Source: Schaalia odontolytica (lineage in GTDB: Bacteria > Actinomycetota > Actinomycetes > Actinomycetales > Actinomycetaceae). From it: a stretch of DNA of 64,000 bases. The stretch's first letter is position 1. Every line of letters begins with the position of its first letter. Location of the stretch: the NCBI RefSeq assembly GCF_024584435.1, contig NZ_CP102197.1:620001-684000 (forward strand), read 5' to 3'. The notes under the pieces were generated by a model. It saw only the letters and a program-made list of their open reading frames with translations. It searched no databases and had not been told where the DNA came from. A program made the translations under genes and the position numbers. Shown here one piece after another: positions 517 to 23,379 of this stretch.

Positions 517-1269
517 CTAGGCGCGGTTCGTGGCGGCGTAGTAGGCGGCGCCAACGATGCCCGCCGTGTTGAGTAGCTTCGCCGGGATCATCGGCGTCTT
601 GAGCGACAGGAGGGGCATGAACTTGTCGTGGTTCTCCGACACCCCGCCGCCGACGACGAAGAGATCCGGATTGAGCAGGAACTCAACGTGGCTGTAGTAG
701 CGCTGCAGGCGGGCCGCCCATTCCTCCCAGCCCAGGCCCTGCGCGGTCTTCTGGCCAGAAGAGGCCATCTTCTCGGCGTCGTGTCCGTCGATCTCGAGGT
801 GCCCCAGCTCGGTGTTCGTCAGCAGCGTTCCGTTGACGATGATCGCCGATCCGATGCCTGTGCCCTGCGTCGTAAAGACAATGACCCCGTCGCGGCCCTT
901 CGCCGCCCCGTAGGTGACCTCGGCGATGCCCGCCGCATCCGCGTCGTTCAATGCAACGACGGGGCGCCCCAGGTGAGTCGCCATGAGGGCGCGAACGTCG
1001 ACGTTGACCCACGACTGATCAAGGTTCGCCATGTAGGGGATAACACCGTCGAAGACGGGCGCGGGAAAGGTGACCCCGACGGGCACGTCGGGACCCACCC
1101 CCAGTCGGTCAATGACCGTGCGGCACACGGCCGCCACGGCGTCCGGCGTCGCCGGATCGGGCGTGGGAATACGAACCTGATCGCCAACGTATTCGCCTGA
1201 TTCCAGATCAACGAGCGCGCCTTTGACGCCCGATCCTCCAATGTCAATGCCGCATGCAACCGTGGTCAT
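517..1269 (-). CDS. ppgK: Polyphosphate glucokinase (ROK family)
   Basis: This 250-residue cytosolic enzyme phosphorylates glucose to glucose-6-phosphate using polyphosphate (and often ATP). The N-terminus carries the phosphate-binding motif DIGGSGVKG at about residues 9-17. A second motif, TTQGTGIGSA, lies in the middle, followed by GHLEIDGHDAEK, characteristic of actinobacterial polyphosphate glucokinases. The length is typical for the family (about 250-270). The ATG start is preceded by GGAGGGG. It is convergent with rnpB and about 130 bp downstream of map on the same strand. Other ROK sugar kinases are possible, but the polyphosphate subgroup fits best. Confidence 0.9.
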   Translation of the reverse strand: MTTVACGIDIGGSGVKGALVDLESGEYVGDQVRIPTPDPATPDAVAAVCRTVIDRLGVGPDVPVGVTFPAPVFDGVIPYMANLDQSWVNVDVRALMATHLGRPVVALNDADAAGIAEVTYGAAKGRDGVIVFTTQGTGIGSAIIVNGTLLTNTELGHLEIDGHDAEKMASSGQKTAQGLGWEEWAARLQRYYSHVEFLLNPDLFVVGGGVSENHDKFMPLLSLKTPMIPAKLLNTAGIVGAAYYAATNRA

Positions 1270-1401
1270 GACCCCTCCTTGGGTGACGTGTGTGCCGTCC
1301 GGTACGAGGCCTCCCCCCGCCCTACCGCAATTGTAGGCGAGGTCACCGAATGAGGCTCGGCCCGTGCCGCACTGTGAGAGCGAGCCGCGCGCCGTGCGTG
1401 G

Positions 1402-2286
1402 CTAGGGGAGGGTGAGGATGTCGGCACCCTCCTCGGTCACCACGATCGTGTGCTCGAATTGGGCGGTGCGGGAGCGGTCGGCGGTGACGATAGTCCAGCC
1501 GTCGTCCCACTGCTCCCACTCGATGGTGCCCAGGGTGAGCATCGGTTCGATGGTAAACACCATGCCCGGTTCCATGATCGTGTCGTAGGAGGGAGCCGCA
1601 TCGTAGTGAGGAACGATGAGGCCGGAGTGGAAGGCCTCTCCCACGCCGTGGCCGGTGTAGTCGCGCACGACTCCGTAGTCGAAGCGCTTGGCGTAGGCCT
1701 CGATGACGCGGCCGATGACGTTGATCTCACGGCCCGGGCGAACCGCCTTGATCCCACGCATGAGCGCGTTGCGCGTGCGTTCGATGAGGAGGTGGGACTC
1801 TGCGTCGACGGTGCCGACCTCGAACATGGCGCAGGTGTCTCCGTGGACGCCGTCCTTGTAGGCGGTGATGTCGATGTTGATGATGTCCCCGTCTCGCAGG
1901 GGACGGTCGTCGGGGATGCCGTGGCAGATCACCTCGTTGATCGAGGAACAGATCGCCTTGGGGAAGCCCATGTATCCCAGGCACGACGGGTAGGCGTCGC
2001 GAGCGATGATGTACTCGTGAGCGATCCGGTCGAGCTCGTCCGTCGTGACGCCGGGGGCGATAGCCGCCGCGACCGCGTCGATCGCGCCGGCCGCGATGCG
2101 TCCGGCTTCGCGGATCCGAGCGACGGTGCGAGGGGATTTCACGTCCGAGGCCGTGACTCGTTCGGGGCCGTCGTGGAACATGTACTCGGGGCGTTCGATA
2201 TGCTCGGGAACCGCCCGCATCGGTGAGACCCTTCCGGGCGTGAGCGTTCCCAGCGGTGCGCGGCGTGCCAGCGCTGATGCTTCCAT
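1402..2286 (-). CDS. map: Methionine aminopeptidase, type I
   Basis: This enzyme removes the initiator methionine from nascent proteins. It has 294 residues. The dinuclear metal ligands are all present: the Asp in INIDITAYKDG, the Asp in HGDTCAMF, the His in TGHGVGEAFH, the Glu in FTIEPML and the Glu-containing QFEHTIVVTEEG near the C-terminus. A roughly 40-residue N-terminal extension precedes the catalytic fold, as in other actinobacterial type I enzymes. The frame stays open upstream, but that part overlaps panB in another frame, so the ATG at 2286 is chosen. This start lies 10 bp after the panB stop, so the two are probably cotranscribed. Confidence 0.92.
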   Translation of the reverse strand: MEASALARRAPLGTLTPGRVSPMRAVPEHIERPEYMFHDGPERVTASDVKSPRTVARIREAGRIAAGAIDAVAAAIAPGVTTDELDRIAHEYIIARDAYPSCLGYMGFPKAICSSINEVICHGIPDDRPLRDGDIINIDITAYKDGVHGDTCAMFEVGTVDAESHLLIERTRNALMRGIKAVRPGREINVIGRVIEAYAKRFDYGVVRDYTGHGVGEAFHSGLIVPHYDAAPSYDTIMEPGMVFTIEPMLTLGTIEWEQWDDGWTIVTADRSRTAQFEHTIVVTEEGADILTLP

Positions 2287-2296
2287 TGGTATCGTC

Positions 2297-3154
2297 CTAA
2301 TCGTTCTTGTAGTTGTCGGGTCCCGGGAACTTCCGGGCGCGCACGGCTGCCACGTAGTCGCTCGCCGCGTCGCGAAGCGCCGGCCCGAGCTGGCCGAACT
2401 TGTGCACAAAGGAGGGCACCCACTGCGAGTAGCCCGCCATGTCGGACCAGACAAGAACCTGACCGTCGGTATCCGGTCCCGCCCCGATGCCGATTGTGGG
2501 GATTGCCGCCGCTTGGGTGATCTCCCGCGCGACCGAGGCGGGCACCATCTCCAGGACGAGTGCGAAGGCGCCGGCCTCCTCGACCGCCTTCGCGTCTGTG
2601 CGCAGAGGTTGCGCGCCATCTCCGCGTCCCTGCATGCGAGGCCCACCCAGGGTGTTCTCGGACTGCGGGGTGTAGCCCAGGTGGGCGCACACGGGAATTC
2701 CGGCGGCGACCAGGGCGGAAATAATGTGCGCTCGCTTCTGGCCCCCCTCGAGCTTGACGGCATGCGCCCCCGCCTTCATGAGGCGGGCTGCGGACGCAAA
2801 CGCGTGCTCTGGAGTGTCTTCATAGGTGCCGAACGGTAGGTCCGCGATGATCATCGCGCGCGAGGTAGAACGGGCGACGGCTGCCGTCGTGCGCTCCATG
2901 TCCTCGAGCGTGACGGGGAGGGTGGAGGAATGACCGAGCATGACGTTGCCGAGAGAGTCTCCGACGAGCAACATGTCGACTCCCGCCGCCTCCAGGATGG
3001 GCGCGGTGAGCGAGTCGTAGGCCGTGAGCATCGTGAGGGGAATGCCCTCGGCCTTCGCGCGAGCGATGTGCTGGACGCGCACGCGCTTGGCAGGCAGGGC
3101 ACAGGGAGTCGGAGACGAGTCGGTGGCGTCCTCTGGTGGCGTGACGTGAGACAT
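2297..3154 (-). CDS. panB: 3-methyl-2-oxobutanoate hydroxymethyltransferase
   Basis: PanB makes ketopantoate from alpha-ketoisovalerate and 5,10-methylene-tetrahydrofolate, the first committed step of pantothenate (CoA) synthesis. The 285 residues include the Mg-binding LLVGDSLGNVMLGH motif, the KLEGG segment, the VCAHLGYTPQS block and the TIGIGAGPDTDGQVLVWSD motif. The ATG at 3154 is preceded by GGGAGG at good spacing. The frame continues upstream only through the opposite strand of pheS. It is the first gene of a probable panB-map operon and diverges from pheST. No panC or panD is in the window. Confidence 0.93.
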   Translation of the reverse strand: MSHVTPPEDATDSSPTPCALPAKRVRVQHIARAKAEGIPLTMLTAYDSLTAPILEAAGVDMLLVGDSLGNVMLGHSSTLPVTLEDMERTTAAVARSTSRAMIIADLPFGTYEDTPEHAFASAARLMKAGAHAVKLEGGQKRAHIISALVAAGIPVCAHLGYTPQSENTLGGPRMQGRGDGAQPLRTDAKAVEEAGAFALVLEMVPASVAREITQAAAIPTIGIGAGPDTDGQVLVWSDMAGYSQWVPSFVHKFGQLGPALRDAASDYVAAVRARKFPGPDNYKND

Positions 3155-3254
3155 GAGTATCCTCCCGTGAGACGGCGGTTGCGCATCAGCGCATTCACGT
3201 CCTACAGCGTAGCGCGATGGCGGACCCGGTGAGCTGTGAGGACGGGCGAACGGG

Positions 3255-3260
3255 TAAGAT
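3255..3260 (+). promoter_or_regulatory. Candidate -10 of pheST
   Basis: TAAGAT lies about 65 bp before the pheS start in the panB-pheS divergent region. The -35 is not obvious. No phenylalanine leader peptide or T-box is visible. Confidence 0.35.
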
Positions 3261-3295
3261 GGGGCGCGGTGCGCGTGAGAGCTACGCGGACATGA

Positions 3296-4411
<1,116 letters not shown>

Positions 4412-4412
4412 C

Positions 4413-7061
4413 ATGCCTATGGTGACGCTGAGCTGGCTCGCTGACCACGTGGATGTCGCCGAAGGAACGGACGCCGAGGCGCTGGCTGCGGCGCTTGTCA
4501 AGGTCGGCCTGGAAGAGGAGGAGATCCACCCCGCTCAGGTGGTTGGACCGCTCGTCGTTGGTCGCGTCCTTGCGCGCACGGAGGAGACCGCCTCGAACGG
4601 CAAGGTCGTGAACTACTGCCGAGTGGACGTCGGCGAGTACAACGATGCCCCCGGAACTGGCAAAGAACCCTCGGACCTTCCCAGCCGCGGAATCATCTGC
4701 GGTGCCCACAACTTCGACGTCGGTGACCTGGTTGTCGTCTCGCTGCCCGGCGCGGTTCTTCCGGGCAACTTTCAGATTGCCGCGCGCAAAACGTACGGGC
4801 ACGTCTCGGATGGAATGATCTGCTCGGCCCGCGAACTCGGCCTGGGCGAGGACCACTCGGGCATCATCGTCCTGCCGGAGTTCTTCCCCGATCGCGAGAT
4901 TCCGCCGGTGGGTACCGACATCGTCTCCTGGCTCGGCTTGGGCGAGGAGGTCCTGGAGATCAACGTGACGCCGGATCGGGGCTACTGTTTCTCGATGCGC
5001 GGAATCGCCAGAGAGTACTCGCACGCGACGGGCGCCGCGTTCAGGGACCCGGGGCTTCCCGGCGTCATCGCCTCGTGCCCGCCCGTAGCCAACGACGAGG
5101 GGTTCCCGGTCGTCTTCTGCGATGACGCTCCGATCCGCGCACGCCTCGGCGTCGACCGCTTCGTTGCCCGCGTGGTGCGCGGGACGAATCCGTCGGCTTC
5201 CACGCCCCGGTGGATGGTGGAACGCCTGGAAGCGGCAGGAATGCGCTCGGTCTCCCTGGCCGTCGATATCACGAACTACGTGATGCTGGACCTGGGTCAG
5301 CCGATGCACGCCTACGACCTGGGTGCGCTGGCAGCGCCGATCGTCGTGCGCCGCGCGCGAGCGGGCGAGACCCTGGTGACCCTGGACGAGGAGAAACGTG
5401 AGCTGGACGAGCAGGACTTGCTCATCACGGACTCTCCGCACGCACAGGGCTCTCGGATCATCGGGATTGCCGGCGTCATGGGAGGTGCGTACTCCGAGGT
5501 GGGCGAGAGCACCACGGACATTCTCTTCGAGGCCGCACACTTTGACGCCGTGTCCATCGCGCGCAGCTCGCGCAGGCACAAGCTGCACTCCGAGGCGGCC
5601 AAGCGCTTCGAGCGGGGAACCGACCCCGCCCTGCCGGCGCTCGCCGCGCAGCGCGCCGTTGAGCTCATGATTCGCTACGGCGGTGGGAACGTCGATCCGG
5701 GAGTTACCGACAACGACCAGCGCCCCGATCCGGTACGCATTGTGTTGCCCATGGGCGAGGCCGAGCGCCTGACCGGTGTGTCGCACAGCCCGGAGCGCAT
5801 CGCCGAACTCTTGAGGGCGGTGGGGTGCGTCGTCGATGAGCCCCGGGATGGAGCGATCAAGGTCACCGCCCCGTCGTGGCGTCCGGATCTGACGATGCCG
5901 GCTGACCTCGTCGAGGAGATCGCCCGCCTTGACGGCTACGACAAGATCCCCGTGATTCTGCCGAGCGCCCCCGCCGGTATCGGCCTCACGCTCGCCCAGA
6001 AGGCCCGGCGTCTGAGCGCCGCGGCGCTGGCGGAGGGAGGGCTCGTGGAGGTCGAGTCCTATCCCTTTGTCTGCGACACGTGGGATCGTCAGGGCATCGC
6101 CTCTTCCGACCCCCGCCGGAGCGCCCTGCGTTTGCGTAACCCCATGGCCGACGATTCTCCGTGGCTGCGCACCTCGGTGCTCGATACGCTGCTGGACGTC
6201 GCGGGCCGTAACGTCGCTCGCTCGAACGCGGACGTGGCCATCTTCGAGGTGGCGAAGGTCGCCCAACCGCAGGGAACGGTGCCCGCCGAGCTGCCCGGCG
6301 CCGACCAGCGTCCCTCGGATGAGGTTCTTGCCGCGCTCGAGGCGGGAATTCCCGCTCAGCCGTGGCACATCGGCGGGGTTCTGACCGGGAATGCGCAGCG
6401 CTCCGGGGTGCTCTCCCAGGCACGCGCATTCGATTGGGCGGACGCCCTGGAGTATGTTCGCTCCGTGGCACGCGGGCTTGGCGTGCGTGTCGAGGTGACG
6501 CGCGCGTGGGTGGAGTCTCCGGCCGCGCACAAGGGAGCCCCGATGCCGACTCCGGCCACCGATCCCGCGCGGGTCGCGCCTTTCCACCCCGGCAGGGTTG
6601 CGCGCGTCTTTGTTCGCGCGGGCCGTGACCTGGTCGATGTGGCGCTTGCAGGTGAGCTCTCTCCGGCCGCCTGTCGCGCGTTCGGCCTGCCCGCCCGCTC
6701 CTGCGCTTTCGAGATCGATATGGATGCCCTCATCGGGCAGATGTCGACCGAACCAGTTCAGGTCAAGGGGGTGTCCACGTACCCTCTCGCCAAGGAAGAC
6801 ATTGCGCTCGTCGTCCCGGCCGACATTCCCGTCGCGCGCGTTGAGCAGGTGGTCCGTCAGGGCGCGGCGCCGCTGGCCGAGGCGGTGACTCTCTTCGACA
6901 TGTACGAGGGGGACCAGGTCCCGTCCGGTTATCGTTCGCTCGCCTTCGCCGTGCGTTTGCGAGCATCGGATCACACGCTCACCGCCAAGGAGTCGGCGCA
7001 GGTGCGCGAGCGTGTCGTGGCGAAGGCCTCGAAGGTTCTCGGAGCCTCTCTGCGCGCCTGA
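4413..7061 (+). CDS. pheT: Phenylalanine--tRNA ligase beta subunit
   Basis: This 882-residue partner of PheS has the full bacterial domain order. A tRNA-binding EMAP-like domain occupies about residues 40-160 (including GIICGAHNFDVGD). The B3/B4 editing region follows (LAVDITNYVMLDLGQPMHAYD), then the B5 domain, the catalytic-like core, and the C-terminal anticodon-binding FDX-ACB domain (YPLAKEDIALVVP near residue 790). The ATG at 4413 follows GAAGGGG. An upstream in-frame codon inside pheS is less likely. No terminator is evident directly after the gene. Confidence 0.96.
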   Translation: MPMVTLSWLADHVDVAEGTDAEALAAALVKVGLEEEEIHPAQVVGPLVVGRVLARTEETASNGKVVNYCRVDVGEYNDAPGTGKEPSDLPSRGIICGAHNFDVGDLVVVSLPGAVLPGNFQIAARKTYGHVSDGMICSARELGLGEDHSGIIVLPEFFPDREIPPVGTDIVSWLGLGEEVLEINVTPDRGYCFSMRGIAREYSHATGAAFRDPGLPGVIASCPPVANDEGFPVVFCDDAPIRARLGVDRFVARVVRGTNPSASTPRWMVERLEAAGMRSVSLAVDITNYVMLDLGQPMHAYDLGALAAPIVVRRARAGETLVTLDEEKRELDEQDLLITDSPHAQGSRIIGIAGVMGGAYSEVGESTTDILFEAAHFDAVSIARSSRRHKLHSEAAKRFERGTDPALPALAAQRAVELMIRYGGGNVDPGVTDNDQRPDPVRIVLPMGEAERLTGVSHSPERIAELLRAVGCVVDEPRDGAIKVTAPSWRPDLTMPADLVEEIARLDGYDKIPVILPSAPAGIGLTLAQKARRLSAAALAEGGLVEVESYPFVCDTWDRQGIASSDPRRSALRLRNPMADDSPWLRTSVLDTLLDVAGRNVARSNADVAIFEVAKVAQPQGTVPAELPGADQRPSDEVLAALEAGIPAQPWHIGGVLTGNAQRSGVLSQARAFDWADALEYVRSVARGLGVRVEVTRAWVESPAAHKGAPMPTPATDPARVAPFHPGRVARVFVRAGRDLVDVALAGELSPAACRAFGLPARSCAFEIDMDALIGQMSTEPVQVKGVSTYPLAKEDIALVVPADIPVARVEQVVRQGAAPLAEAVTLFDMYEGDQVPSGYRSLAFAVRLRASDHTLTAKESAQVRERVVAKASKVLGASLRA

Positions 7062-12602: not shown

Positions 12603-13888
12603 GTGACAGACATTCTGGACGACCTGCAATGGCGTGGGCTGCTCGCGCAGCACACGGACCTTGAGGCGCTTCGCGCCCACCTCGCTTCCGGGCCTGTCAC
12701 CTTCTATTGCGGCTACGATCCAACGGCGCCATCCCTGCACCACGGGCACCTCGTACAGCTGATCGTCATGCGTCACCTGCAGCTCGCGGGGCATCGCCCT
12801 CTCGCGTTGGTCGGAGGAGCAACGGGACAGATCGGTGATCCGCGCCAGAGCGGAGAACGTCAGCTGCAACCCACCGATGTCGTCCAGGGCTGGGCGGATC
12901 GGCTGCGCGCGCAGATATCCCGTTTCCTGGACTTCGAGGGGCCGGCCGCGGCTCAGATGGTGAACAACCTCGACTGGACCGAGCAAATGAGCGCGCTGTC
13001 CCGAGCAAATGAGCGCGATCGATCTGCTGCGGACGATCGGCAAGTACTTCCGCGTGGGCACGATGCTGGGCAAGGACATCGTGGCGCGCCGCATCGCCTC
13101 AGACGAGGGCATTTCCTACACCGAGTTCTCCTACCAGGTGCTCCAGGCCAACGACTTCTTGGAACTTTTCCGCCGAGAGGGCTGCACCCTGGAGACGGGA
13201 GGCAACGACCAGTGGGGCAATATGGTCGGCGGCGTCGACCTGATCCGCAAGGTCGAGGGAGCCGAGACTCACGTGATGACGACCCCGATCATCACGAAGG
13301 CTGACGGCACCAAGTTCGGAAAGTCTGAGGGGGGAGCGATCTGGCTCGATCCTGAGATGATGACACCGTATGCCTTCTACCAGTTCTGGCTGCAGGTTGC
13401 CGATGAGGACGTCGTGCGTTTCCTGAAGATCTTTACGTTTATGTCGCGCGAGGAGATCGAAGCCCTTGCCGTTGAGGTCGCTGAGCGGCCCCACCAGCGT
13501 GCCGCGCAAAAGGCCCTGGCCGCCTCGGTGACGGAACTGGTCCATGGGGCAGACCAGCTGAAGCGAGTTCTTGCCGCGACCCAGGCGCTGTGGGGCGGGG
13601 GAGACATTCGCGACCCTCGACGCCGCGACGCTTGCTGCGGCGACGGCTGACCTCCCGCGTGCGAGCCTGTCGCTCGGAGAAGCAACGGTTGTGGACGCGC
13701 TGGTGGCCCTTGGCTTCGAGAAGGGAAAGACTGCGGCTCGTCGGACGATCGCATCGGGCGGAGCCTCCGTTAACAACGTCAAGGTCGAGGACCCAGATGC
13801 GCTTCTGAACGCCAGTGACGTTCTTGCCGGTGGTTTGGCTCTCATTCGCAAGGGACGCAAGAATCTGGCGGTGCTTGAACTGCACTGA
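12603..13888 (+). pseudogene. tyrS: Tyrosyl-tRNA synthetase, frame disrupted twice
   Basis: The encoded enzyme would charge tRNA-Tyr. All domains are present but lie in three successive frames. Part one (from GTG 12603) carries the class I HIGH-like motif SLHHGH. Part two carries TGGNDQWGN and the KMSKS-like KFGKS. Part three carries the C-terminal S4 RNA-binding domain. The first break is a 22-bp insertion that duplicates CCGAGCAAATGAGCGCG (12979-12995 and 13001-13017). The second is one extra G in the run 13597-13601. Removing 22 + 1 bases gives exactly 421 codons, the normal bacterial length. Because TyrRS is normally essential, sequencing or assembly error is as likely as real decay. A second synthetase elsewhere would be needed if the breaks are real. 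Confidence 0.9.
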
Positions 13889-14247: not shown

Positions 14248-19238
<4,991 letters not shown>

Positions 19239-19380: not shown

Positions 19381-19498
19381 TTGTGGTGGTCACAGCACCG
19401 GGGAAACGCCCAGCACCATTCCGAACCTGGAAGCTAAGCCCGGCAGCGCCAATGGTACTGCAACCGACAGGTTGTGGGAGAGTAGGACACCGCCACAA
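19381..19498 (+). rRNA. rrf: 5S ribosomal RNA
   Basis: An RNA of about 118 nt. The 5' end TTGTGGTGG pairs with the 3' end CCGCCACAA. Conserved internal blocks CATTCCGAACCTGGAAGCTAAG and GGGAGAGTAGGACACCGCC are present. It completes the 16S-23S-5S operon. Confidence 0.95.
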
Positions 19499-19510
19499 CA
19501 CACCAAACAA

Positions 19511-19553
19511 GCGGACCGGGACACCCCCACACGAGAGGGGCGCCCCGGTCCGC
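19511..19553 (+). terminator. rRNA operon terminator
   Basis: A 10-bp outer stem (GCGGACCGGG 19511-19520 with CCCGGTCCGC 19544-19553) encloses a second C4/G4 pairing. It lies 12 bp after 5S. There is no T tract. Confidence 0.75.
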
Positions 19554-19712
19554 CCACACACACCCACAAAGACACAACCGTGCCGTCCCTCTCCAAAATC
19601 ACACCTGCCACCACATCGGACGCGTTCGTCGACTAGGATGGCTTCATTGAACGCGCGCAGCGCACAGATGATATCGACGCCCCGGCGGGCGCAGGAATAG
19701 AGGTTAAGCACC

Positions 19713-22370
19713 ATGGCAGATGACACTCAGGGACGCGGCGGATTTGGCCGTGGTGGCTATCAGAAGCGCCAACCGCAGTGGCGTGATCAACGTGGCGGGG
19801 GCGAACGGCGTGGCTTCAGCGACCGCGAGGATTCCCGCGATGGTCGTGGTGGTTATCAGCGTCGTGATGATCGCCGCGGTGGGGCTCGCTTCGATCGCGA
19901 TGAACGCCGCGGTGGGTTCCGTGAGGAGCGCGGCGATGGTGGGCGTCGGGACTTCGGCGGCCGTGATGGTCAGCGCTCGGGCTACGGGGATCGTGATGAG
20001 CGCGGTCGCGGTCGTGGTGGTTATCAGCGTCGTGATGATCGCCGCGGCGGGTTCCGTGAGGAGCGCGGCGATGGTGGGCGTCGGGACTTCGGCGGCCGTG
20101 ATGGTCAGCGCTCGGGCTACGGGGATCGTGATGAGCGTGGTCGCGGTCGTGGTGGTTATCAGCGTCGTGATGATCGCCGCGGTGGGGCTCGCTTCGATCG
20201 CGATGAACGCCGCGGTGGGTTCCGTGAGGAGCGCGGCGATGGTGGGCGTCGGGACTTCGGTGGCCGTGATGGTCAGCGCTCGGGCTACGGGGATCGTGAT
20301 GAGCGTGGTCGTGGTCGTGGTGGTTATCAGCGTCGTGATGATCGCCGCGGTGGGGCTCGCTTCGATCGCGACGAACGCCGCGGTGGGTTCCGTGAGGAGT
20401 GCGGAGGTCGTCAGGACTCCAAGTACCAGAACCACTCGTCCATCGAGGAGTACGTTGCTCCCAACGGTGATGAGCCGACTATTCCCGCAGGTGTCAGCGC
20501 TGACGAACTAGATGCGCAGGCACTGCGCGCGCTGACGACGCTGTCAGGCCCCAACCGTGACATTGTCGCTCGCCACCTCGTGCTGGCCGGGCAGCTGATC
20601 GACCTCGACCCGGAGGCCGCGTATCAGCACGCGCAGGCGGCCGTGAGCCGAGCCGGTCGCGTCGACGTGGTGCGTGAGGCTGCCGCACTGACGGCCTATG
20701 CGTCGGGACGCTACGAGGAGGCGCTGCGCGAGGTGCGAGCCGTGCGCCGCATGAGGGCGGACTCGTCTCTGAGGGCTATCGAAGCCGATGCGGAGCGAGG
20801 CCTCGGACACCCCGACAAAGCTGTGGAGATCATCGAGGCAACCGACGCCACAAGTCTCGATCTCGCCGAACAGGTCGAACTGGTCCTCGTCTCTTCCGGG
20901 GCGCGCGCCGACCTAGGACAGTCGGACGTCGGCCTTGTCATCGTCGACGATGCGCTCGCAGTACTGCCTGAGGCAGCCGACGACGAGCTCCGACGCCGCC
21001 TGATGGAGGTCAAGGCCGAACGCCTCACCGAACTCGGAAGGGACGCCGAGGCAGCCGACGTCCTCGAAGCTATGCCCGCGCCGGTCGAGGATACGGACAT
21101 TATTGACGTTGCCCTCTTCCAGGACGCCGATGTCGACAATAAGCGCTCGGCGCTGCGAGACTCCGGATCGGCGCTCGCCGAAGAGTTCGATTGCGCACTC
21201 CTCGACCTCGATGGCACCGCCTGGTCTGGCGATGAGCGCATCGAGCACGCCGCCGCCTCCGTGATCGAAGCGCGTCAGGCGGGCATGAGCTCAGCATTCG
21301 TTACCAATAACGCGATGCGTACGCCTGCCCAGGTGGCTGAGAAGCTGAACGGGATGGATTTCGATGCGAACGCCGACATGGTCATGACCTCGGCCATGGA
21401 CATCGCCGCCATCATGGCCGAAGAACTCGACGAGGGATCCAAGGTGTTTGTCCTCGGCGGCCCCGGCTTGCGTCTCGCCGTCGAAGAACAGGGTTTCACG
21501 CTGGTGGGCAGCGCCGATGAGTCGCCGGCCGCCGTGGTTCAGGGCCTCGACAAGGAGGTCGACTGGGCGGCGCTGTCCGAGGGTGCTTTCGCCATTGAGC
21601 GGGGCGCAGCTTTCTACGCGTCGAACCTTGACGCGACGCTGCCGGTCGAGCGCGGCCAGGCGCTGGGCAACGGTTCGCTGGTGCGCGCCATCACGCACGC
21701 GACCCGCAAGCGCCCCACAGCGGGAGGCAAGCCCGAGCCCGGAATCTATCGGCGCGCCAGCGCGCTGGTCGGAGCGACGAACCCGCTGGCCGTGGGTGAC
21801 CGCCTCGAAACCGACATCATGGGTGCGGTCGCCGCTGGCATTCCCGCCATGCACGTGCTGACCGGCGTGCACCAGGCTCGTGACGTCATCCGAGCCCCGC
21901 GTGGCCAGCGCCCGAGTTACCTCGCCATCGACATGCGTGGACTCCTGGAGTCTCACCCCGCGCCGAAACACCACCGCGATGGCACGTGGACGTGCGGCGT
22001 CTCGCAGGTCGCCAAGGTCACCCGTTCGGGTTCGCTGATGCTCGACGACGTCGAGCTCACTGTGCCGGTCACCGTGTCGATCGACTCTTACCGCGCACTT
22101 GCCGCAGCCGCCTGGGAGTACGCGGACGCGGCCGGAGAGCCCGTGACATGCCCCGAGATGAGCGTCGTGGACAACGACGATCCGTCCGGCATCGTGCGCG
22201 CGCCCGAAGCAGCCGCGGGCGAGGAACGCGGAGACGACATCCTCGCAGCCACCGCCACGGCGGACGAGCTGCCCGAGCCGGGAGAAGAGACGCCCACGTT
22301 CCTGCCCGGCGAAGAAGAGTTGGAAGAGCTTCTCGCACGCACAGCGGACTTGGACGACGAGGAGCGATGA
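19713..22370 (+). CDS. RGG-repeat / TPR-like / HAD-IIA phosphatase fusion
   Basis: One open frame of 885 residues with three parts. Residues 1-230 are low-complexity and Arg/Gly/Asp-rich, with four tandem blocks rich in RGG, RRDDRRGG and GGYQRR. Residues about 247-480 are helical, TPR-like. Residues about 490-770 form a NagD-type HAD phosphatase: LLDLDGTAWSGDE with the nucleophile Asp near 498, FVTNNAMRTP, a Lys-containing GGKPEPGIYRRA, and VGDRLETDIMGA. A C-terminal extension ends in an acidic tail. In M. tuberculosis the last two parts correspond to neighbouring genes Rv1691 and Rv1692, the latter a glycerol-3-phosphate phosphatase, so phospholipid-related phosphatase activity is the best guess. 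The RGG part may bind RNA or form condensates (inference). The ATG follows AGAGGTTAAGCACC. It is the first gene of the tlyA-steB operon. Confidence 0.85.
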   Translation: MADDTQGRGGFGRGGYQKRQPQWRDQRGGGERRGFSDREDSRDGRGGYQRRDDRRGGARFDRDERRGGFREERGDGGRRDFGGRDGQRSGYGDRDERGRGRGGYQRRDDRRGGFREERGDGGRRDFGGRDGQRSGYGDRDERGRGRGGYQRRDDRRGGARFDRDERRGGFREERGDGGRRDFGGRDGQRSGYGDRDERGRGRGGYQRRDDRRGGARFDRDERRGGFREECGGRQDSKYQNHSSIEEYVAPNGDEPTIPAGVSADELDAQALRALTTLSGPNRDIVARHLVLAGQLIDLDPEAAYQHAQAAVSRAGRVDVVREAAALTAYASGRYEEALREVRAVRRMRADSSLRAIEADAERGLGHPDKAVEIIEATDATSLDLAEQVELVLVSSGARADLGQSDVGLVIVDDALAVLPEAADDELRRRLMEVKAERLTELGRDAEAADVLEAMPAPVEDTDIIDVALFQDADVDNKRSALRDSGSALAEEFDCALLDLDGTAWSGDERIEHAAASVIEARQAGMSSAFVTNNAMRTPAQVAEKLNGMDFDANADMVMTSAMDIAAIMAEELDEGSKVFVLGGPGLRLAVEEQGFTLVGSADESPAAVVQGLDKEVDWAALSEGAFAIERGAAFYASNLDATLPVERGQALGNGSLVRAITHATRKRPTAGGKPEPGIYRRASALVGATNPLAVGDRLETDIMGAVAAGIPAMHVLTGVHQARDVIRAPRGQRPSYLAIDMRGLLESHPAPKHHRDGTWTCGVSQVAKVTRSGSLMLDDVELTVPVTVSIDSYRALAAAAWEYADAAGEPVTCPEMSVVDNDDPSGIVRAPEAAAGEERGDDILAATATADELPEPGEETPTFLPGEEELEELLARTADLDDEER
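19848..20399 (+). repeat. In-frame tandem repeats encoding RGG blocks
   Basis: Four direct copies: 168 bp (19848-20015), 135 bp (20016-20150, lacking a 33-bp segment), 168 bp (20151-20318) and a partial 81 bp (20319-20399). Copies are nearly identical at DNA level, including synonymous positions, so the array is recent or homogenised. All lengths are multiples of three, so copy-number change would keep the frame. Confidence 0.92.
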
Positions 22371-22555
22371 GCCTACGCACACAGGTCGAAGCGCGGTTGG
22401 TCGGCTTTGATCTGCTTGACGCCCCCTCCCAGGCCGAGACGTTGAAGCAGATCGAGGCGCAGCTGCGCCAGGCGCTGTCCGGCCCCGATGCGGCGGCGGC
22501 TGCCGGCGCCTCGCCACATCCCACTGTCCGCACGGTGAGAGGGACGGGCGAGTGA
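22367..22555 (+). CDS. Small conserved protein, Rv1693 position
   Basis: A 62-residue protein whose ATG overlaps the previous stop (ATGA) and whose stop overlaps the tlyA GTG (GTGA). Residues about 1-40 form a probable amphipathic helix (LDAPSQAETLKQIEAQLRQAL); the tail is Ala/Pro-rich. No known domain is recognised. A similarly small gene sits between the phosphatase and tlyA in mycobacteria (Rv1693). Double translational coupling supports it being real despite its size. Confidence 0.72.
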   Translation: MSLRTQVEARLVGFDLLDAPSQAETLKQIEAQLRQALSGPDAAAAAGASPHPTVRTVRGTGE

Positions 22556-23379
22556 AACTGCGACGCATCGACTCCGAGCTGGTGCGCCGCGGGATCGCCC
22601 CGTCCCGCTCCAGCGCAGCGCGGATGATCGAAGAAGGGCGAGTCAAACTCGACGGCCAGGTTGTGCTCAAGGCAGCGCGCCAGATGGACCCCGCCCAGGC
22701 AATCGTCGTTGCCGAGTCAGACGAGGCCGACTACGTCTCGCGCGGCGCACACAAGCTTGCCGGCGTCCTCGACGCGCTCGGCGATCGGGCTCCGCGTATC
22801 CGTGGCCGTCGAGCCCTCGACGCGGGGGCATCGACGGGAGGCTTTACCGACGTCCTGCTGCGGCGCGGAGCAGCATCAGTCGTGGCCGTCGATGTCGGCT
22901 ACGGGCAGCTCGCGTGGAAGCTGCAGGCCGACCCCCGCGTTGAGGTCCACGATCGAACCAACGTGCGCACGCTCGACCCCGCCACAGTCGCCCCGGCACC
23001 CGAGCTCGTTGTCGGTGACATGTCCTTCATCTCGCTAACACTCGTTCTCCCGGCCCTGGTCGCCGCGGCCGCGGCCGACGCCGATTTTCTTCTCATGGTC
23101 AAGCCGCAATTTGAGATCGGCAAAGAACGGCTCGGCCGCGGGGGAGTGGTGCGCAATCCGGAGCACCACGTCGAAACCGTCGACAAGGTGGCCCGTTGCG
23201 CCATCAATCTCGGACTCGACATCGCCGCAGTCGCCGCATCCCCGCTGCCCGGCCCGAGCGGTAACGTCGAGTACTTCATTCACATGCGCCGCTCCCACCC
23301 GCACCCGATCGCGGCGCAAGACCTGACCGGCTGCATCCGCCGGGCTGTGGCTGAAGGACCAGCAGGAGGTACGTCATGA
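22552..23379 (+). CDS. tlyA: TlyA 2'-O-methyltransferase
   Basis: TlyA methylates 2'-hydroxyls of 16S C1409 and 23S C1920 in actinobacteria, which makes ribosomes sensitive to capreomycin. The 275 residues start with an S4 RNA-binding domain (RRIDSELVRRGIAPSRSSAARMI, residues about 3-62). A FtsJ-like Rossmann methyltransferase follows, with the SAM loop ALDAGASTGGFTDVLL and the catalytic-region VVGDMSFISL. The GTG start overlaps the previous stop and the end overlaps nadK (ATGA). Its position 3 kb behind an rRNA operon fits an rRNA-modifying role. Confidence 0.94.
   Translation: MKLRRIDSELVRRGIAPSRSSAARMIEEGRVKLDGQVVLKAARQMDPAQAIVVAESDEADYVSRGAHKLAGVLDALGDRAPRIRGRRALDAGASTGGFTDVLLRRGAASVVAVDVGYGQLAWKLQADPRVEVHDRTNVRTLDPATVAPAPELVVGDMSFISLTLVLPALVAAAAADADFLLMVKPQFEIGKERLGRGGVVRNPEHHVETVDKVARCAINLGLDIAAVAASPLPGPSGNVEYFIHMRRSHPHPIAAQDLTGCIRRAVAEGPAGGTS

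Follow-up and report, generated by a model that had tools for sequence, protein, structure and literature searches.

In mycobacteria, the closest described counterparts of the two folded parts of the protein analyzed here are products of neighboring genes, in the order lprJ, Rv1691, Rv1692, Rv1693, tlyA, ppnK, and recN as given in an excerpt of PMC3072309. Rv1692 (PDB IDs: 4i9f and 4i9g) is a separate protein that, according to the excerpted text of PMC12722247, completes the breakdown of phospholipids by releasing glycerol and phosphate. Rv1691 and MSMEG_3754, called its orthologue, are TPR proteins encoded by separate genes ahead of the phosphatase gene. In excerpted sources, MSMEG_3754 appears on a high-confidence list of proteins co-purified with RNA polymerase beta and also in a ClpC1 interactome table (PMC10433963); owing to the latter, its recovery in pull-downs may be unspecific. 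The HAD-IIA phosphatases of the YutF/NagD type (PDB IDs: 3pdw and 2c4n) are stand-alone enzymes of 250–266 residues with neither a head nor a TPR region.

Arg/Gly-rich domains that bind RNA are well known from eukaryotes, as the RGG/RG domains of the FUS, nucleolin, and fibrillarin type. To our knowledge, bacterial proteins of the RGG type are few and poorly understood.

We analyzed a window of 64,000 nucleotides from Schaalia odontolytica, the genome of which is a single contig of 2.39 Mb. An ORF on the forward strand (19713..22370) starts with ATG and remains open over 885 codons. The resulting protein of 885 aa consists, from the N- to the C-terminus, of an Arg/Gly/Asp head, a TPR solenoid, a HAD-IIA phosphatase, and an acidic tail, with net charges of +20, −25, −14, and −23, respectively. 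The first two parts probably correspond to the TPR protein encoded ahead of the phosphatase gene in mycobacteria, and we refer to them as the head–TPR protein; unlike Rv1692, the phosphatase here is joined to them at their C-terminal side. The features of the window are as follows.

14248..15788, + strand: 16S rRNA
16112..19238, + strand: 23S rRNA
19382..19498, + strand: 5S rRNA (the genome has three 5S genes)
19511..19553, + strand: terminator-like hairpin separating the 5S gene from the ORF (perfectly paired arms of 10 bp, loop of 23 nt; by eye)
19626..19656, + strand: sequence block ahead of the start codon and past the terminator, with partial conservation in the genus (6 sequences compared)
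19713..20411, + strand: Arg/Gly/Asp-rich disordered head, residues 1–233 (composition, near-identical tandem repeats)
20514..21071, + strand: TPR solenoid, from helix H28 to helix H213 in the model of window:20433-21167 (AlphaFold2, fold matches, alignment A1)
21168..22082, + strand: HAD-IIA phosphatase, residues 486–790 (DLDGT, VTNN, GGKP, and GDRLETD intact)
21918..22169 (approximate), + strand: alpha/beta domain following the HAD core, probably the C-terminal domain of Rv1692 type (AlphaFold2, Foldseek)
22191..22367, + strand: acidic tail, of low model confidence save for the last helix (charge, AlphaFold2)
22367..22555, + strand: 62-codon ORF separating the fusion gene from tlyA (ORF list)
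22552..23379, + strand: tlyA, rRNA (cytidine-2'-O)-methyltransferase family (family matches)

Our reading, to which we assign a probability of about 50%, is that this is an actinobacterial head–TPR protein with a Rv1692-type HAD-IIA phosphatase as C-terminal fusion, acting as an RNA-associated adaptor. The conserved seat of the head–TPR gene behind an rRNA operon, which lies outside the span singled out in the first-pass annotation, is a more interesting fact than the fusion itself.

Folded parts and spread of the fusion

The phosphatase part matched the Pfam domains Hydrolase_6 and Hydrolase_like and the HAD-SF-IIA subfamily model TIGR01460 (104.1 bits, above the cut-off of 100.15), and it shares its fold and family with the YutF/NagD-type enzymes. 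The motifs DxDG[T/V], TNN, GKP, and GDxxxTD were all present, and their columns were invariant in 114–116 of 116 phosphatase sequences (from the window and from loci matching at 100 bits or above), the exceptions being one or two rows with gaps. The Rv1692 structures 4i9f and 4i9g were the best relatives by structure and by sequence: the best Foldseek match, 4i9g, showed 36% identity over 348 columns with a chain of 329 residues, and phmmer gave an E-value of 1.6e-51. HAD-IIA core and cap are common to both proteins, and the C-terminal domain probably is as well; for this domain, Pfam GNAT_like reached 14.1 bits, under its cut-off of 26.3. The phosphatase had been described from the start as an intact counterpart of Rv1692, and the kept motifs and structural matches bear this out; judging from sequence, it probably acts on glycerol-3-phosphate like Rv1692.

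The AlphaFold2 model of the TPR region had a mean pLDDT of 91.1 and TPR proteins as its best PDB matches, by which the helical region initially called TPR-like is a TPR solenoid. Fold searches with Foldseek and VIA-align returned generic TPR proteins, which hint at no particular function, and no specific known TPR family, an absence that proves nothing. Pfam recognized no family in the window's own copy, and TPR_2 matched 13 of 37 relatives at E 0.01. TPR profile A1, in which the window is one row, gave an E-value of 3.6e-90 in the own genome and was found in 176 of 197 genomes of the class, with two copies in four of them and one in the others. We take Rv1691/MSMEG_3754 to belong to the same protein family from gene order and the TPR label used in the papers, not from sequence. 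The AlphaFold2 model of the fusion, the one aligned with 4i9g, reached a pLDDT of 88.9 and a pTM of 0.59, and because of the latter the placement of the domains relative to one another is unsure. An acidic tail had also been listed as a trait of the fusion. The tail is there, but it is not special to the fusion, as 95 of 99 unfused TPR proteins also carried a net negative charge in the 60 residues at their C-terminus.

TPR region and phosphatase shared one stop-free frame in 48 of 151 genomes of the window's family, distributed over 11 of 36 genera; G082, with a stop inside the span, was left out of this count. Among named genomes, the fusion occurs in, for example, Pauljensenia hongkongensis, Actinomyces mediterranea, a Gleimia, Varibaculum cambriense, and two Mobiluncus species. 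A single clear fusion from beyond the family (G279, family f8) occurred among the matches listed from the 197 class genomes, and G198 had a stop inside the TPR–phosphatase span. At the other loci examined, TPR gene and phosphatase gene were separate. The fusion is a lineage-confined variant of two known neighbors, of which Rv1692 is characterized and the other hardly so.

The tyrS gene of the window (12603-13888, + strand) can be read only with two frame changes, its pieces lying in three frames; in a relative of the same genus (L214), the first two pieces share one frame. Either this part of the sequence has indels introduced by sequencing or the tyrS copy is broken, and since indels are possible in this assembly, two separate genes might have been joined by a sequencing error in the fusion ORF as well. 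This has next to no probability: the fused frame recurs without an internal stop in the 48 family genomes, and the 120 listed database relatives are 769–916 aa long and carry HAD domains, which together rule out an assembly join. The three modules in one frame, as first annotated, are genuine and conserved.

On the phosphatase tree (89 rows), four changes are required to explain the fused label, and well-supported branches force three of these. They concern the main clade including the window, a second clade (g6 and g20), G279, and an apparent loss in G028 that may stem from a disrupted reading frame. The tree suggests that the fusion arose more than once; a single gain followed by losses may be compatible with it as well.

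A different view of the fusion would start from the enzyme, with the fusion bringing a glycerol-3-phosphate phosphatase to a partner in membrane-lipid turnover and the head serving as a mere interaction or condensate tag. The kept catalytic motifs, the almost full-length match to Rv1692, the persistence of the fusion across 11 genera, and the description of Rv1692 as the last step of phospholipid breakdown in the excerpt of PMC12722247 all agree with this view. We consider it improbable, as head and TPR region occur without a fused phosphatase across the class, and ten loci of family f30 had no phosphatase within ~2–3 kb downstream of the head–TPR gene. In the adaptor reading, the head–TPR protein carries the product of the next gene at its C-terminus, and the fusion says that the two can coexist in one chain or make use of one another.

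The seat behind the rRNA operon

The first-pass annotation had placed the gene immediately behind an rRNA operon and upstream of tlyA. The former stands, with the start codon 214 nt after the end of the 5S gene; the latter calls for a small correction: the 62-codon ORF, which had no match in family searches, intervenes. To compare this arrangement among genomes, adjacency was defined as an rRNA gene on the same strand within 1.3 kb. From 140 loci, 137 with a TPR region were retained and reduced to 133 at one per genome, with the second copies G176b and G254b counted as loci. Ten (G019, G057, G075, G097, G125, G139, G147, G152, G198, and G311) were dropped for a contig end within 1.5 kb upstream without rRNA or for a start that was not callable, leaving 123 informative loci. 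Loci were picked mostly on long contigs, which biases against finding rRNA upstream.

The rRNA neighborhood was conserved far beyond the window's genus. Among loci from other families of the same class, 46 of 51 had the head–TPR gene immediately after a 5S gene, and each of the 17 families contributed one or more of these; for other classes of the phylum, the count was 3/5. Inside the family, adjacency was found in 32/39 unfused and 10/28 fused loci. Single-contig genomes gave 31/35 for the class outside the family, 25/29 for unfused and 4/10 for fused family members, and 3/5 for other classes. Fused family genomes accounted for 18 of the 32 informative loci that were not adjacent. The spacing from the 5S gene to the start codon was mostly 60–450 bp.

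A set of named genomes, comprising the best 80 matches of a scan of which 28 were uninformative, showed adjacency in 33 of 52 loci, including five of the eight fused ones. Contig ends fell within 1 kb of the TPR region upstream in 22/80 and downstream in 0/80 of these named loci, as expected with an unassembled repeat such as rRNA upstream. The asymmetry was also seen when 16/39 plus-strand matches (within 1 kb of the contig start, hence upstream) were compared with 0/23 minus-strand matches downstream (Fisher p 1.8e-4; six matches with E > 1e-6 omitted). The 5S gene was present in 1–6 copies per genome in 27 genomes, and a calculation based on one to eight thousand genes per genome puts a chance seat behind one of them well under 1%, the genomes being related and the cases not independent. 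Six of the 27 genomes had a single 5S gene, and the head–TPR gene lay behind it in five (G175, G194, G334, G162, and G375); in G232 the single 5S gene is far away. Our literature search found no report of this link; most subscription papers lay outside the search, so that one may exist.

The link belongs to the head–TPR gene and says nothing of the phosphatase. A phosphatase was fused or started within 700 bp in only 15 of the 51 same-class loci outside the family, and 32 such loci, confirmed by profile search, kept the rRNA link with no phosphatase close by. Two genomes of family f31 (G176 and G254) carry two head–TPR genes each, every copy behind its own rRNA operon; HAD and tlyA were absent within ~2.5 kb downstream of the second copies, and within the stretches covered a phosphatase gene stood by one copy only. 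The spacing of 5S gene, hairpin, and start was the same at both copies of each genome (L132/L186 in G176 and L133/L187 in G254). The idea that the protein couples a metabolite phosphatase to ribosome biogenesis is not favored by these counts, since the link is rarer in fused than in unfused family members, which argues against such coupling. The fusion accompanies the loss of the rRNA link and does not strengthen it.

In 15 of the 20 loci whose upstream flank was analyzed, the tyrS gene preceded the same rRNA operon, and for this reason an ancient block argH-tyrS-rrn-head-TPR-HAD-tlyA kept by inertia is a serious rival to our reading, though one that we place clearly below even odds. Here, an rRNA operon would have been inserted between tyrS and the head–TPR gene in an ancestor, and the order would have stayed while the gene had nothing to do with rRNA; the head would be a generic tail for solubility or self-association, and the fusion a neutral loss of the stop codon between abutting genes. 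Unfused TPR and HAD genes do lie close together in the family, which would make fusion easy, and the link was lost in many fused genomes and in G232. Inertia of the block fits less well with the 32 same-class loci that keep the rRNA link with no phosphatase start within 700 bp, with five flanks in which the link was kept and no tyrS was seen (G162, G168, G176, G188, and G323), or with the second copies in G176 and G254, which have an operon of their own.

As a separate observation, two tandem rRNA operons (1108-6330 and 9223 onward) precede the head–TPR gene at L195 of G180, with a piece of tyrS before the first.

Hairpins and transcription

A crude script (stem of at least 10 bp, at least 5 GC pairs, within 110 nt) found a hairpin behind the 5S gene in 73 of 90 adjacent loci; being limited to short loops, it misses long-loop or bulged hairpins, including the window's own with its 23-nt loop. 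By eye, a hairpin was present in nearly all of the 48 shortest of the 90 spacers. Relatives of the same genus have another hairpin at a similar place between 5S gene and start, and the partly conserved block at 19626..19656 is a candidate promoter region of the fusion gene's own. Streptomyces-like loci showed a −10-like TACAAT (L130) or TATAAT (L170) right behind the hairpin by eye.

Since a terminator-like hairpin usually follows the 5S gene, co-transcription with the rRNA is unproven, and it is unsupported as a default. Start codons were guesses, some of them wrong (e.g., L074, L075, L148, and L261), and short spacers are therefore quoted for G265, G176, G256, and G180 only, representing several genera, in which the start codon lies 21–31 nt past the hairpin. 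If these starts are right, the distance is too short for a complete separate promoter and implies read-through or a promoter overlapping the terminator.

A bolder proposal would make the head–TPR gene the functional last cistron of the rRNA operon across Actinomycetota, expressed at least partly via terminator read-through, so that the amount of protein would follow rRNA synthesis and the Arg-rich head would act on the neighboring nascent rRNA; the window's family would also have captured a glycerol-phosphate phosphatase. We regard this extended version as improbable.

The arginine-rich head and its proposed role

The head of the window (residues 1–233) is composed of 30% R, 28% G, and 15% D, and its DNA contains near-identical tandem repeats of 135 and 168 bp with 96% matches. 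RGG occurred 14 times; shuffling the residues of the head gave 5.4 ± 1.9, and 1/5000 shuffles reached the observed count. Owing to the internal duplication, the units within the head are not independent in this test. RG alone was not enriched (24 vs 19.5 in shuffles; 514/5000). In the own genome, a search with the head matched only itself and brought up no similar RG-rich head elsewhere.

Near the N-terminus of the head, a PQWR element (19770-19793) recurs in the family (L098, L074, and L075), reading QPQWRDQR in the window and REPQWRKRR in others; it was the sole sequence-like conservation that we noticed in the head. The repeat also keeps two further long frames open, 19720-20511 (+) of 263 aa and 19704-20435 (−) of 243 aa, which are most likely by-products of repeated codons. 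At L055 (G085), the head is a run of X, the repeat being unassembled or withheld.

In unfused genomes, the Arg-rich head is carried by the TPR protein itself; the head belongs with the TPR part and not with the phosphatase. Heads of at least 40 residues, pooled from the unnamed and named sets with some genomes in both, contained at least 17% Arg in 186 of 194 cases, with a mean of 1.5% Lys, and net charge was positive in all 126 such heads of the first set. G030, with 15% Lys and 12% Arg, is an exception. Arg content of the head did not rise with GC content (r = −0.20), as opposed to the rest of the protein (r = 0.42 for Arg and −0.60 for Lys), and the eight heads with GC below 0.5 averaged 24% Arg and 3.9% Lys. 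This independence from GC also speaks against the rival reading of a gene order kept by inertia.

The RGG repeat first annotated in the window is real, with a count above that of the shuffles, but "RGG domain" is too narrow a label for these heads, as those of family f30 (GC of ~0.5 at the head–TPR gene) have repeats that read RPSS. Nor does head length track with fusion: the longest unfused head has 816 residues, against 303 (first set) and 375 (named set) for the longest fused ones. Members examined from family f8, the family of the G279 fusion, have short heads, of 28–66 residues in four unfused genomes.

Like the eukaryotic RGG/RG domains, the window head is Arg/Gly-rich, Lys-poor, disordered, and repeated; unlike them, it is also Asp-rich, and the f30 heads place their Arg in RPSS repeats. 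In the adaptor reading, the Arg-rich, Lys-poor disordered head would hold RNA, probably nascent rRNA or its transcription complex, and the TPR solenoid, judging from its fold, would hold a protein partner. The phosphatase, as its motifs and homology suggest, would be catalytically competent and would probably dephosphorylate glycerol-3-phosphate. We infer RNA binding for the head, with outside support from one RNA-polymerase pull-down listing of the mycobacterial relative; a literature search for RNA-binding experiments on any head–TPR member found none. For a role in ribosome biogenesis, it is gene position alone that speaks.

The head–TPR protein thus makes a promising candidate RNA-associated protein, one that has apparently gone unstudied. 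The fusion shows that it can take on a metabolic phosphatase as part of the same chain. Beyond the fusion, an Arg-rich head independent of GC content and a seat at the rRNA operon conserved across families single out a widespread and apparently unstudied actinobacterial protein, and raise the question of whether a bacterial RG-type protein encoded beside rRNA acts on rRNA.
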